From: Pseudolactococcus reticulitermitis
GTDB lineage: Bacteria; Bacillota; Bacilli; Lactobacillales; Streptococcaceae
Assembly (NCBI RefSeq): GCF_002260845.1
Contig: NZ_BEDT01000005.1
Location: forward strand, 1-64,000
Direction: 5' to 3'
DNA length: 64,000 nt
Within the stretch, counting starts at the first letter, position 1; each line of letters begins with the position of its first letter. The translations under genes and the position numbers were made by a program. The notes beneath the pieces were generated by a model. That model saw only the letters and a program-made list of their open reading frames with translations, made no database searches and had not been told where the DNA came from. Positions 43,486 through 47,332 of the stretch are shown one piece after another.

Positions 43486-43548
43486 AGATAGTAAAGGGAA
43501 TATAATGATAAATTAGTAGTAAATTAACTAAAGATAAGAGCGGTGAAG

Positions 43549-46458
43549 ATGATGAAGAAAAAATGGATTTTATTAGCAATAGTCGCAGTATCGACTTGTT
43601 TGTTGGGCATGAAAGGAGAGGCGGCAAGTGCAGTCAATGACTATATCATCAAGAATAATGTGAAACCTGCAGGAGAAACCGTATCCCTTGGTAGAATTTA
43701 TAATCAAGACCCCAACAGAAATGGTGGCATCAACATGAATTATACCGATGGGAAACCAAAGATGGTGATTATCCATGAAGTTGGTGTTGATGGCGGGTCA
43801 ATTAATGGCTCCATTGACTACATGGTTAGAACGCAGGATTCGGCTTTTGTCCACTCATTTGTTGATGGCTCACAACTTATCACCATAGCGGATAAAGCAA
43901 AAAAATCTTGGGGTTCAGGTGGTTGGGGGAACCAGTATGGTATCCAAATTGAGCAAATGCGTGTGACGACGAGTGCTGCGTTTTATAAACAAATCGCCAC
44001 ACTGGCCAAGTGGTCAGCAGAACAGTTGATAATCTATGATATGGGGGCACCAAAATTAATGTCAAGTCCTAGCAGCCCTCAAAGGAATGATCTATCAATC
44101 AAGCCTGATGGTAATTTAGCTAGTCATAAGATGATTGCCTATAAGTTTAACCAGACGACAGATCATGTTGATCCAGATGCCTATTGGGCAAGGTTTGGTT
44201 ACAACATGAATCAGTTCCGAGATTTGGTTGAATACTACTATAATCAACTTGGAACTCCGAAGATTAACAGTACCTCAGTAGAAGGTAATCCAGCCACTGG
44301 TGAGTTTAAAGTGCGTGTTAAGACAAGCGGTGCTGTAACAAGAGTTTCGGTGCCAATCTGGTCTCATGATAATGGACAGGATGATTTACTCTGGTATCCG
44401 GCAACTAAAGTCAAAGATGATGAATATTTAGCAACATTTGATGGTGCGAATCATAATTACCAAAGTGGCCTCTATGCTATCCATGCCTATGCTTATAGTC
44501 CAAGTAAGCATGCCACTACGGTTGTGAATGGTAATTTACAAGTCAACTATCCAACGACGCCTATCGTTCATTACCAAACTCATGTGCAAAGTATCGGCTG
44601 GCAACAGTCCGTGACGGATGGTGAAACGAGCGGCACAGTTGGGCAATCACTTCGAGTTGAAGCGTTGAAGTTAGCGGTAACGGGTAATGTATCAGGAGGC
44701 GTCCAGTATCAAACGCACGTGCAAGGGATTGGCTGGCAAAATGGTGTGGCCAATAATGCCTTATCTGGAACAACAGGTAAATCATTACGTGTGGAAGCTG
44801 TTCGAATTGGTTTAACGGGTGACCTTAAATCACAATATGATATCTATTATCGTGTCCAATCACAAAATAAAGGCTGGTTCGGCTGGGCTAAAAATGGTGA
44901 TTCAGCTGGGACACAAGGTTTTGGTTTACGGCTGGAGTCGTTGCAGGTTAAACTGGTTAAAAAAGGTACAGCCTTTGATGTTGGGAGTGAGGCTTTCGTG
45001 ACATCGGATTTGGCGGTCAGCTATCAAACGCATATTCAAGGGATTGGTTGGCAAGCATCCGTTAAAGATGGTGCAGTAAGTGGGACTATAGGAAAAAGCT
45101 TGAGGTTAGAAAGTGTTAAAATCAATGTTGATAATGTTGCCTTTAACAAGATGACTGGTGGTGTTCAATATCAAACTCATGTTCAGAGTATTGGTTGGCA
45201 AAATCCTGTTTCAGACAATGCCCTATCTGGAACAACCGGCAAGAGTTTGCGCGTAGAAGCAATCAAAATCAACTTAACGGGTACCTTAGGCCAAAACTAT
45301 GATATTTATTATCGGGTTAACGTGCAAGATAAGGGTTGGCTTGGTTGGACTAAAAATGGTGAATCTGCTGGTACGCAAGGTTTTGCTTTACGACTTGAAG
45401 CAATGCAGGTCAAACTGGTCAAAAAAGGCACAGCCTTTGATGTTGGTGGAGATGCCTTTTTCAACTCGGAGTTAGTCGTCAACTATCAAACACATGTTCA
45501 AAATCTTGGCTGGCAAACAATGGTTAAAGAGGGCGAGACAAGTGGCACATCTGGTAAAGGACTACGGTTGGAAGGAATCAAAATTGATGTTGCCAATGTG
45601 GCCTTCCATAAGATGAACGGTGGTATTCAGTATCAAACGCATATCCAAAATATCGGATGGCAAAATGCTGTGTCTGATAACGCCATCTCAGGGACGACAG
45701 GTCAAGGACTACGCCTAGAAGCGATCCGGATTAATTTAACGGGTACTTTGGCAGAAAACTATGATATCTATTATCGCGTTCACATCCAAAATAAAGGTTG
45801 GTTAGGTTGGGCTAAAGATGGGGCTTCAGCAGGAAGTGAAGGACAGGCCCTTCGCCTAGAAGCGATTCAAATCAAATTAGTGAAAAAAGGGATTGCCTTT
45901 GATACAGGGGGGACAGCTTTCGTCGTGCCCCCACCAGCCCCAACACTAATGCCAGTATTTAATTTGTCAGGTGTTAACGATACCCAAAAAGCCTGGTTTA
46001 ATGCTATCTATCCAGAGGCTCAAAAATTAGCAAAGGCCAATGACTTATTGCCATCGATTATGATGAGCCAAACTATACTTGAGACTGGATGGGGACAAAG
46101 TGAGTTAGCGACAAAAGCTAACAATTTCTTTGGAGTCAAAGCTGATGTTTCTTGGAAGGGCGCTAAGTATACTGCCTTAACCAATGAGGTCATCAATGGG
46201 AAGACGGTCCAAGTCATGGCTGACTTTCGTAAGTATAACAGTCAGGCTGAGTCCTTGAAGGATTATGTGACGAAGATCAAAACAACTCTGAATGATAGAG
46301 GAACGGATTATCGTTATCGAGCTGCATGGCGCAGCAATGCCAAAACGTATGACAATGCCGCAAAAGCCTTGCAAGCAGGCGGTTATGCAACAGATCCAGA
46401 ATACGCAACGAAGTTGATTACTCGAATTGACAAATACAAATTAAACGCACTAGACTAA
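43549..46458 (+). CDS. Bifunctional autolysin: amidase, Bsp-like domain, nine ChW repeats, GH73 glucosaminidase
   Basis: A secreted protein of about 969 residues. A signal peptide (about 1-28) is followed by an Amidase_2-type N-acetylmuramoyl-L-alanine amidase (about 55-230; His76 in VIIHEVG, later HVDPDAYW). A GBS-Bsp-like beta domain covers about 236-333. Nine ChW repeats (342-780) form three triplets. The C-terminus (about 813-969) is a GH73 glucosaminidase with Glu845 in QTILETGWG. It would cut both the peptide link and the glycan strand of peptidoglycan. The start could be ATG 43549 or 43552. A strong terminator follows. Confidence 0.9.
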   Translation: MMKKKWILLAIVAVSTCLLGMKGEAASAVNDYIIKNNVKPAGETVSLGRIYNQDPNRNGGINMNYTDGKPKMVIIHEVGVDGGSINGSIDYMVRTQDSAFVHSFVDGSQLITIADKAKKSWGSGGWGNQYGIQIEQMRVTTSAAFYKQIATLAKWSAEQLIIYDMGAPKLMSSPSSPQRNDLSIKPDGNLASHKMIAYKFNQTTDHVDPDAYWARFGYNMNQFRDLVEYYYNQLGTPKINSTSVEGNPATGEFKVRVKTSGAVTRVSVPIWSHDNGQDDLLWYPATKVKDDEYLATFDGANHNYQSGLYAIHAYAYSPSKHATTVVNGNLQVNYPTTPIVHYQTHVQSIGWQQSVTDGETSGTVGQSLRVEALKLAVTGNVSGGVQYQTHVQGIGWQNGVANNALSGTTGKSLRVEAVRIGLTGDLKSQYDIYYRVQSQNKGWFGWAKNGDSAGTQGFGLRLESLQVKLVKKGTAFDVGSEAFVTSDLAVSYQTHIQGIGWQASVKDGAVSGTIGKSLRLESVKINVDNVAFNKMTGGVQYQTHVQSIGWQNPVSDNALSGTTGKSLRVEAIKINLTGTLGQNYDIYYRVNVQDKGWLGWTKNGESAGTQGFALRLEAMQVKLVKKGTAFDVGGDAFFNSELVVNYQTHVQNLGWQTMVKEGETSGTSGKGLRLEGIKIDVANVAFHKMNGGIQYQTHIQNIGWQNAVSDNAISGTTGQGLRLEAIRINLTGTLAENYDIYYRVHIQNKGWLGWAKDGASAGSEGQALRLEAIQIKLVKKGIAFDTGGTAFVVPPPAPTLMPVFNLSGVNDTQKAWFNAIYPEAQKLAKANDLLPSIMMSQTILETGWGQSELATKANNFFGVKADVSWKGAKYTALTNEVINGKTVQVMADFRKYNSQAESLKDYVTKIKTTLNDRGTDYRYRAAWRSNAKTYDNAAKALQAGGYATDPEYATKLITRIDKYKLNALD
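44572..45890 (+). repeat. Three tandem ChW triplet repeats
   Basis: Higher-order units begin at 44572, 45022 and 45484 (periods 450 and 462 bp). Each holds two YQTH-type and one YRV-type ChW repeat, then a spacer like KLVKKGTAFDVG. The gene at 41178 holds two such units, beginning at 41664 and 42114. Confidence 0.88.
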
Positions 46459-46469
46459 TCGAAATAATA

Positions 46470-46515
46470 AAAAGTTCTATGATTTTGGAGGTCAAATCAA
46501 TCATAGAACTTTTTT
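46470..46515 (+). terminator. Terminator after the autolysin gene
   Basis: AAAGTTCTATGATT (46471-46484) is perfectly complementary to AATCATAGAACTTT (46499-46512), and T residues follow. The flanking A and T runs make it bidirectional. Confidence 0.93.
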
Positions 46516-46530
46516 GAAAACTTGAAAATG

Positions 46531-46612
46531 TGACCATTCATGGCATATTTTGGTTACTCATACAAGGATTTGGTTATTCATGGTATATTTTCGACCATTC
46601 ACGGCATCTTGG
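46531..46612 (+). repeat. Four-unit 20-bp tandem repeat
   Basis: Degenerate units start at 46531 (TGACCATTCATGGCATATTT), 46551 (TGGTTACTCATACAAGGATT), 46571 (TGGTTATTCATGGTATATTT) and 46591 (shifted by one base). Units 1 and 3 are best conserved. The spacing is close to two helical turns. Confidence 0.7.
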
Positions 46613-46631: not shown

Positions 46632-46674
46632 TGCTATAGTATAGTCATAAACAAATCGCGCGAAAATTGTTTAT
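46632..46674 (+). promoter_or_regulatory. Candidate promoter and operator before the HU-like pseudogene
   Basis: Extended -10 TGCTATAGT (46632-46640). Directly after the expected start site, ATAAACAA (46647-46654) and TTGTTTAT (46667-46674) form a perfect inverted repeat with a 12-bp spacer. Confidence 0.45.
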
Positions 46675-46700
46675 AGCCCATACGCAAAATCGGATATCCC

Positions 46701-46787
46701 AAAACACGGCGGTGTTTGACTCAAAACACGGCGGTGTTTGACTCAAAACATGGCGGTGTTTCACTCAAAACATGGCCATGTTTTGAG
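46701..46787 (+). repeat. Four-unit 22-bp palindromic tandem repeat
   Basis: Units begin at 46701, 46723, 46745 and 46767. The first two are identical, AAAACACGGCGGTGTTTGAC plus TC. The third has two substitutions. The fourth becomes the perfect palindrome AAAACATGGCCATGTTTT. Each unit can form a six- to nine-bp hairpin, or a dyad-symmetric protein site. There are no variable spacers, so this is not CRISPR. Confidence 0.9.
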
Positions 46788-46884: not shown

Positions 46885-47278
46885 ATATCTATTGCTTATT
46901 CTGTCAACGCAAAAATCAATCCAAGCCAACCTGTTGCCCTCGGTCGCTATTATGCCACAGCTAAATCAAGTGGCGATGTGACACTTAAACAGCTTGGGAA
47001 AGAAATCGCACAACGCTCAACAGTCAACCATGCGGATACATTGGCTGTATTAGAAGTCTTAACCCAACTGTTAAGGGGGAGCATATTGTAAATGATGAAA
47101 TCGTTCGTTTAAGTGATTTCGGTCGATTTAATGTCTCACTCAAATTGATAAGACCAGAAAGCCAAGCAGCTTTCACAAGTAAAAATATTGAGAAAGCAAA
47201 AATCAATTTCCGTCCTGGAAAAGACTTGCAGGATATGCTGAAAACGTTGCCTATAAAAAAGTGTCACAAGCTGAATAA
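46885..47278 (+). pseudogene. Broken HU-like (histone-like) DNA-binding protein gene
   Basis: Translation across three lesions gives a protein of about 130 residues. It reads SIAYSVNAKINPSQPVALGR, then YYATAKSSGDVTLKQLGKEI, LAVLEVL, EIVRLSDFGRFNVSL and KAKINFRPGKDLQDMLKTL. This matches the HU/IHF-like family best known from Bacteroidetes. AAAGGAG (46872-46878) is intact, but the start codon at 46885 reads ATA. One-base deletions shift the frame near 47073-47080 and again near 47250. The final frame ends AYKKVSQAE at TAA 47276-47278. Either a decayed gene or several sequencing errors; three lesions favour decay. Confidence 0.8.
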
Positions 47279-47290
47279 TCACAGCGTATT

Positions 47291-47332
47291 TAAAAGCAGT
47301 CATAGCTATATTCAGCTATGACTGCTTTTTAT
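47291..47332. terminator. Bidirectional terminator between the HU-like pseudogene and pepA
   Basis: AAAAGCAGTCATAGCT (47292-47307) pairs perfectly with AGCTATGACTGCTTTT (47314-47329). It has an A run on one side and a T run on the other, serving the converging pseudogene and pepA. Confidence 0.92.

Follow-up and report, generated by a model that had tools for sequence, protein, structure and literature searches.

Several systems are known in which a DNA-binding protein has iterated sites beside its own gene, namely ParB-parS, ParR-parC and the Rep-iteron systems. Intergenic palindromes of the REP/BIME type, often located past terminators, co-vary with the REP-associated transposase, and the BlpR and ComE promoters, which are of the LytTR type and serve bacteriocin and competence functions, contain direct repeats. 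In the HU/IHF superfamily, HU is a non-specific DNA binder and IHF is sequence-specific, with one degenerate site class per genome; canonical members have about 90 aa, basic arms and an R-N-P tip. For HU clades, Burroughs and co-workers reportedly predicted in 2017 functions in partition and in conflicts involving mobile elements. To our knowledge, cognate palindrome arrays have not been reported for the HU-HIG family (PF18291), and we know of no protein of the HU superfamily with cognate iterated sites. The literature searched, in which most subscription papers were out of reach, yielded no description of arrays beside HU-HIG genes, and in the accessible part of PMC11035120 a protein named HU-HIG is merely listed. 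The HU-HIG family is already known; what would be new at the locus described here are the putatively matched iterated sites beside the gene.

The window, that is, the whole stretch of 64,000 nucleotides analysed from Pseudolactococcus reticulitermitis (genome G000), contains an array of four 22-bp palindromic units in the leader of a broken HU-like gene (Table 1). The preliminary description had placed four tandem units with dyad symmetry about 100 bp upstream of this gene, and both statements were borne out. Tandem Repeats Finder delimited the array at 46700-46783, with period 22, 3.8 copies and 93% matches, and its score of 133 was the highest among the six rows obtained for the window. The pattern AAACANGNNNNTGTTT, drawn up after the units had been seen, was matched exactly five times in the window, at four sites of which the last counts on both strands, when 0.14 matches were expected; that count was reached in 0 of 100 shuffles. 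Lag 22 was also the top local period in the 300 bp upstream of the gene, with agreement at 42 of 44 positions. The last unit, previously described as a perfect 18-bp palindrome, is indeed enclosed by a perfect palindrome, but this measures 24 bp (46764-46787). When the window-type unit was sought in the rest of the genome with up to two mismatches, no further tandem array was present among the matches listed.

Table 1. Features of the HU-HIG module in the window and related arrays elsewhere in G000.
Feature	Position	Strand	Remarks
Terminator-like inverted repeat belonging to the upstream glucosaminidase gene	46469..46514	+	16-nt perfect arms, then T run
'20-bp array', ACCATTCATGGCATATTTT-like direct repeats	46532..46610	+	promoter-proximal, common to other genes
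Candidate -10 TATAGT	46640..46645	+	sequence; three leaders side by side
ATAAACAAATCGCGCG..TTGTTTAT hairpin at presumed transcript 5' end	46647..46674	+	all three G000 HU-HIG leaders
Window array	46700..46787	.	four 22-bp palindromic units; cores 46702-46717, 46724-46739, 46746-46761, 46768-46783
HU-HIG first piece	46888..47088	+	PF18291 8.7e-07; 68% identical to intact G011 protein over 63 residues
HU-HIG second piece, different frame	47073..47258	+	PF18291 4.2e-11, match within 47073-47285
Terminator-like hairpin past HU-HIG gene	47292..47329	+	16-nt perfect arms
Dispersed G000 arrays	loci L105-L112, L114-L116

The broken gene belongs to the HU-HIG family: its two pieces scored 29.5 and 43.4 bits against PF18291, for which the curated cut-off is 26.2, and a whole-genome search placed the second piece at 47091-47255. 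The expected start position (46885) reads ATA, with no ATG, and the frame is shifted near 47072. In the window the HU-HIG gene is dead and the array survives as a leftover. Just upstream of the module, 43543-46458 codes for a large glucosaminidase that contains nine stretches of the ChW type as well as a GBS Bsp-like repeat.

Two intact HU-HIG paralogues, G000b and G000c, are present in the same genome, and the leader of each carries a 22-bp array whose units differ: about seven units resembling GCGGTAGCAAAAAACTATCGTA in G000b and seven units of the TTTTACACGAGCAGTAAA type in G000c. In the congener G011, the HU-HIG leader contains three 22-bp units of a third kind, AAGTGTAGGCCTGTACTT. The CGCG hairpin and the 20-bp repeats are common to all three G000 leaders, and those of G000b and G000c each have one single window-type palindrome after the hairpin. 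Arrays were thus found upstream of the nearest intact homologues (both paralogues and G011); as the preliminary description had named their absence there as the refuting outcome, the result for these homologues is in its favour. Against it stand the 11 of 41 HU-HIG genes that failed at p<=0.05 in the test given below and the poorer fit of five human-gut homologues. The G011 gene (L008/L013, contig C15) lies inside an apparent cluster of surface-protein genes, which we take to be WxL/DUF916-like. In G001, a congener without HU-HIG, the site homologous to the flanks of the window module has a gap of about 130 bp versus 880 bp in G000, and that homologous to the flanks of G000b has about 130 bp versus 1.2 kb. 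Since the flanking genes are present there without the module, it was either inserted in G000 or lost from G001.

The existence of the 20-bp array was also confirmed. Its direct repeats of 20-21 bp lie ahead of the candidate promoter, with a spacing that falls within the 20-22 bp of LytTR promoters, and we take them to be of the LytTR/BlpR type. Similar direct repeats of 20-21 bp precede a C39-peptidase exporter gene (L099, PF03412, G000:C3:61425-) and, as judged by eye, an HTH gene (L100, G000:C7:17378-), and for this reason the 20-bp array looks like a separate promoter element, a site of a LytTR-type regulon outside the 22-bp array system. HU-HIG may be under peptide-signal control. The proposal that both arrays and the HU-like gene are remnants of one module is supported for the 22-bp array and the gene, which belong together, but not for the 20-bp array. 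The beginning of the L100 product resembles a double-glycine leader peptide.

HU-HIG is rare in Bacillota, where one of 398 sampled genomes, G000 itself, gave a match at E<=1e-14. Among 335 Streptococcaceae genomes, matches well above canonical HU were obtained in G000, G011, G022 and G025 only, the G025 homologue being broken and without an array. In Bacteroidota, 17 of 296 sampled genomes gave 33 matches at E<=1e-17, of which the 30 with an assigned locus entered the analysis. The resulting set of 41 genes comprises these 30 and 11 Streptococcaceae genes, including the broken genes of the window and of G025. No relative was found in the viral contigs scanned with A1; a scan of genome contigs gave two loci, one of them G011 again, and of 17 matches in plasmid and phage records five loci, all human-gut homologues, were examined.

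The intact G000 paralogues scored 94.6 and 96 bits against PF18291. TIGR01201 (HU_rel) was the one NCBIfam subfamily that gave matches: G000b, the G011 protein and L061 scored above its cut-off, and G000c and two G022 proteins below it. With 130 and 134 aa, the paralogues consist essentially of the HU-HIG domain alone; some homologues are longer. As regards the fold, the 34 solved chains matched by sequence were all of HU/IHF type, with no recognisable HU-HIG structure in the PDB by sequence; a search of solved structures with three sequences found nothing, and the structure model was poor (pLDDT 42). Alignment A3 of the Streptococcaceae HU-HIG proteins (127-170 aa) displayed an N-terminal extension and an acidic arm region in place of the canonical length, basic arms and R-N-P tip. 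Because the arm has acidic residues and no such tip, the contact of HU-HIG with DNA may differ from that of HU.

The association between HU-HIG genes and 22-bp periodicity was evaluated against first-order Markov resamples. A period of 22 or 44 bp within 300 bp on either side of the gene was significant at p<=0.01 for 28 of the 41 genes, that of the window included, and at p<=0.05 for 30; in far flanks, 800-1100 bp away, the corresponding figures were 0/41 and 4/41. When proteins were clustered at 55% identity, 20 of the 30 clusters had at least one member at p<=0.01. Considering each near 300-bp flank separately, 30 of 82 were significant, 27 of them at lags 21-23 or 43-46; with a different set of shuffles the number was 28 of 82. 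Control flanks yielded one significant case in 77 at 500-800 bp (lag 54) and three in 76 at 900-1200 bp (lags 11, 14 and 30), and flanks of canonical HU genes two in 52 (lags 31 and 57); none of these was at lag 22 or 44.

The 11 genes failing at p<=0.05 were L072, L075, L083, L084, L085, L087, L088, L089, G025, G022_C191 and G022_C64. L085 and L087 have arrays of 23-bp palindromes, and L088 has a 23-bp array lacking palindromy. The array of G022_C64 does have a 22-bp period but lies farther than 300 bp from the gene. For the human-gut plasmid and phage homologues, none of the five reached p<=0.01 at lag 22 or 44 within 300 bp, and L060 reached p<=0.05 (p 0.025). In L057 the sequence immediately upstream of the HU-HIG gene has a 20-bp period (p 0.005), and in L058 a period of 22 bp occurs farther away, 300-700 bp upstream (p 0.0025), at about 1900-2034. 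In these two Bacteroides/Parabacteroides plasmid records, HU-HIG adjoins genes for DUF4248 and an N-acetylmuramoyl-L-alanine amidase.

By column permutation, the best arrays were palindromic at p<=0.05 in 25 of the 41 cases, the flank of G022_C64 having been set by hand to -560..-230 with its array already seen. Examples are GACCATGGTCAC, AAAACCTGCGCAGGTTTT, CAGACATAACTATGTCT, AACATCCGGATGTT, TTGCCCATGGGCAA and TTTGCTATAGCAAA. Inspection by eye identified cores common to related proteins: the ATGCGCAT type in L064-L067, L069 and L071, TTCACC..GGTGAA in L077, L081 and L082, and TCAT..ATGA in L061 and L062. Motif similarity increased with protein identity (Pearson 0.65, p 0.0002) over 30 of the 41 arrays, selected by score, with L088, L076, L079 and the window dropped by name, L065, L069 and L077 taken in by name, and the downstream array substituted by hand in the case of L069; below the score were G025, G022_C191, L072, L075, L083, L084 and L089. 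Among individual pairs, L081 and L082 had a motif similarity of 0.76 despite 41% protein identity, G000b and G000c, which are 75% identical, scored just 0.51, and L064 versus L080 gave 0.37 at 53% identity. The correlation partly reflects shared descent.

The explanation that we consider probable is that the arrays are occupied in phase by HU-HIG dimers, which recognise palindromes specific to each gene and form architectural or roadblock complexes. According to it, HU-HIG proteins (PF18291/TIGR01201 HU_rel) would be sequence-specific members of the HU/IHF superfamily, and each dimer would recognise its own palindrome of about 10-18 bp. Iteration at 22 bp, about two helical turns, would align adjacent dimers along the same face of the DNA in a phased complex. 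As a rule, one array adjoins the HU-HIG gene, and some genomes also have similar arrays dispersed in intergenic DNA, often just past terminators, where the complex would most likely be an architectural site or a transcription roadblock. With the array between promoter and gene, as in the window, HU-HIG would also be able to limit its own expression. The interval of 22 bp, the divergence of the linkers, the palindromy of the units and the places where the arrays lie argue for a protein on DNA. As a tentative extension, HU-HIG proteins could be orthogonal, sequence-specific chromatin proteins. Each paralogue would evolve its own palindrome and, beside its gene, an array phased at two turns, and in some lineages it would give rise to dispersed arrays that divide the chromosome into insulated domains, which would amount to boundary elements programmed by proteins in bacteria; we would lean against this.

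The unit of G000c recurs across the genome, and a wider pattern detected arrays at 11 places outside the leaders of the HU-HIG genes. These arrays occupy intergenic DNA and are weakly palindromic (1/11 at p<=0.05). With neighbours taken from simple ORF calls, for which the previous ORF of L105 and L106 is probably not the true neighbour, the upstream ORF had the orientation of the array in nine of the 11, the next gene was convergent in seven, and a terminator-like hairpin, identified by script, preceded the array in seven. As judged by eye, the genes upstream of several of them encode surface proteins with LPXTG-like ends or repeats. Two such loci, L107 and L108 (G000:C1, 40.7 kb and 781.8 kb), consist of related surface-protein genes whose near-identical 3' flanks end in a 22-bp array, and the sequences suggest duplication or recombination.

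In unbiased scans, with lag 22 at >=30/44 as threshold, 400 kb of G000 gave three lag-22 clusters, which all belonged to this type and included the G000c leader, and 324 kb of G011 gave 15, one being the HU-HIG leader. A single cluster was obtained in 98 kb of G022. Dispersion of the arrays was observed in two genomes, and a third had one further array. G001 had no strong lag-22 clusters in the 400 kb scanned, and at >=26 there were two weak clusters at lag 22 and three at lag 44, none having both. No strong arrays were detected either in the 400 kb covered for G1118, a Bacteroidota genome, and its own HU-HIG array was also below the threshold. Palindromy at p<=0.05 was found in 14 of the 15 lag-22 arrays of G011 and in six of the eight tested among its 23 lag-21 clusters. 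The core of the G011 HU-HIG leader occurred as a 22-bp tandem at two more sites, and its single loose matches were no commoner than in shuffles. Altogether, G011, whose genome is about 70% complete, has at least five families of 22-bp cores, in addition to the lag-21 clusters, and one detected HU-HIG gene. Its loci L177-L196 contain many 21-bp and 22-bp arrays, the longest of about 680 bp, some of which share longer flanks, as judged by eye.

The dispersed arrays bear on the best surviving alternative, namely that they are interspersed repeats of the REP/BIME kind, spread or used by another factor, which HU-HIG adjoins through shared insertion hot spots or co-carriage. Intergenic repeats scattered in one genome, as in REP/BIME, are what G000 and G011 contain, and the location of the G000 arrays next to terminator-like hairpins and convergent genes would be accommodated, as would the longer flanks shared by some G011 arrays. 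Since the array families of G011 outnumber its detected HU-HIG gene, other proteins may be involved. However, the link with HU-HIG genes extends over two phyla, the cores differ between most loci and motif similarity rises with protein similarity, which shared hot spots would not produce. We regard this alternative as unlikely.

The position of the arrays was tallied for the 30 of 41 loci with confident arrays, again with neighbours from simple ORF calls. In 17 the array was downstream of the HU-HIG gene and in 13 upstream. Of the downstream arrays, nine face a convergent gene and eight are in tandem; a terminator-like hairpin was found before or at the array start in eight of them (L061, L062, L064-L067, L069 and L071). 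A further one has the hairpin inside the array and another one past the array, and in the other seven none was detected. Arrays past terminators and between convergent genes suggest a roadblock or boundary function.

This distribution is hard to reconcile with plain autoregulation, in which the array is the operator of the neighbouring gene only. Such a reading would suit the Streptococcaceae, where seven of nine tallied arrays are upstream, and the window array, which sits between the candidate promoter and the HU-HIG start. Nevertheless, the 17 downstream arrays, their convergent neighbours and hairpins, and the similar units at 11 other places in G000 make it improbable. Of the three readings offered in the preliminary description, operators for the HU-like protein is the one favoured, in so far as the units would be recognition sites; the positions argue against a plain operator as the general account. 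Another, RNA hairpins in the leader, working as an attenuator or as protein-binding RNA, is very unlikely. The window leader folds well (z -5.5) and its units are able to pair, which is explained by their palindromy, but many arrays lie downstream of the gene, some of them between convergent genes or beyond a terminator-like hairpin, and so argue for DNA sites instead of leader RNA; likewise, a strict step of 22 bp combined with linkers that diverge is the mark of a DNA site. The remaining one, iterons of a lost replicon, which tandem iterated units do resemble, is scarcely credible because the intact homologues of G000 and G011 lie among ordinary chromosomal genes, the units vary between genes and no replication initiator was noted by eye in the ORF lists of the loci read.

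If recognition of the arrays by HU-HIG is correct, a large and poorly studied branch of HU would acquire a testable function, the many natural pairs of protein and site would serve to learn how the HU fold reads sequence, and the chromosome architecture of Bacteroidota and of some Streptococcaceae would become easier to approach. For the window, the link between HU-HIG and arrays accounts for an otherwise orphan repeat.

Finally, the locus can be compared with the known systems. The likeness to BlpR and ComE promoters lies in the 20-bp array, which resembles their direct repeats and also occurs ahead of a C39-peptidase exporter gene; it is thus a matter of the promoter, and the 22-bp array has no part in it. 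The name of the HU-HIG family refers to C-terminal fusions to wHTH, Ig or Gly-rich regions; the G000 paralogues are essentially the domain alone, and only some homologues are longer. As in ParB-parS, ParR-parC and Rep-iteron systems, the HU-HIG gene adjoins iterated sites, but no motor or initiator gene was noted by eye in the ORF lists of the loci read. With REP/BIME elements the arrays have in common that they are intergenic, often past terminators, and co-vary with a protein; the differences are that this protein is HU-like and not a transposase, and that the units are phased at 22 bp. HU-HIG belongs to the same superfamily as IHF and HU (DNABII), as indicated by PF00216 matches and the nearest solved chains. 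It differs from IHF in that the cores linked to it vary by gene and are arranged in 22-bp arrays, and in having an arm without the canonical tip.
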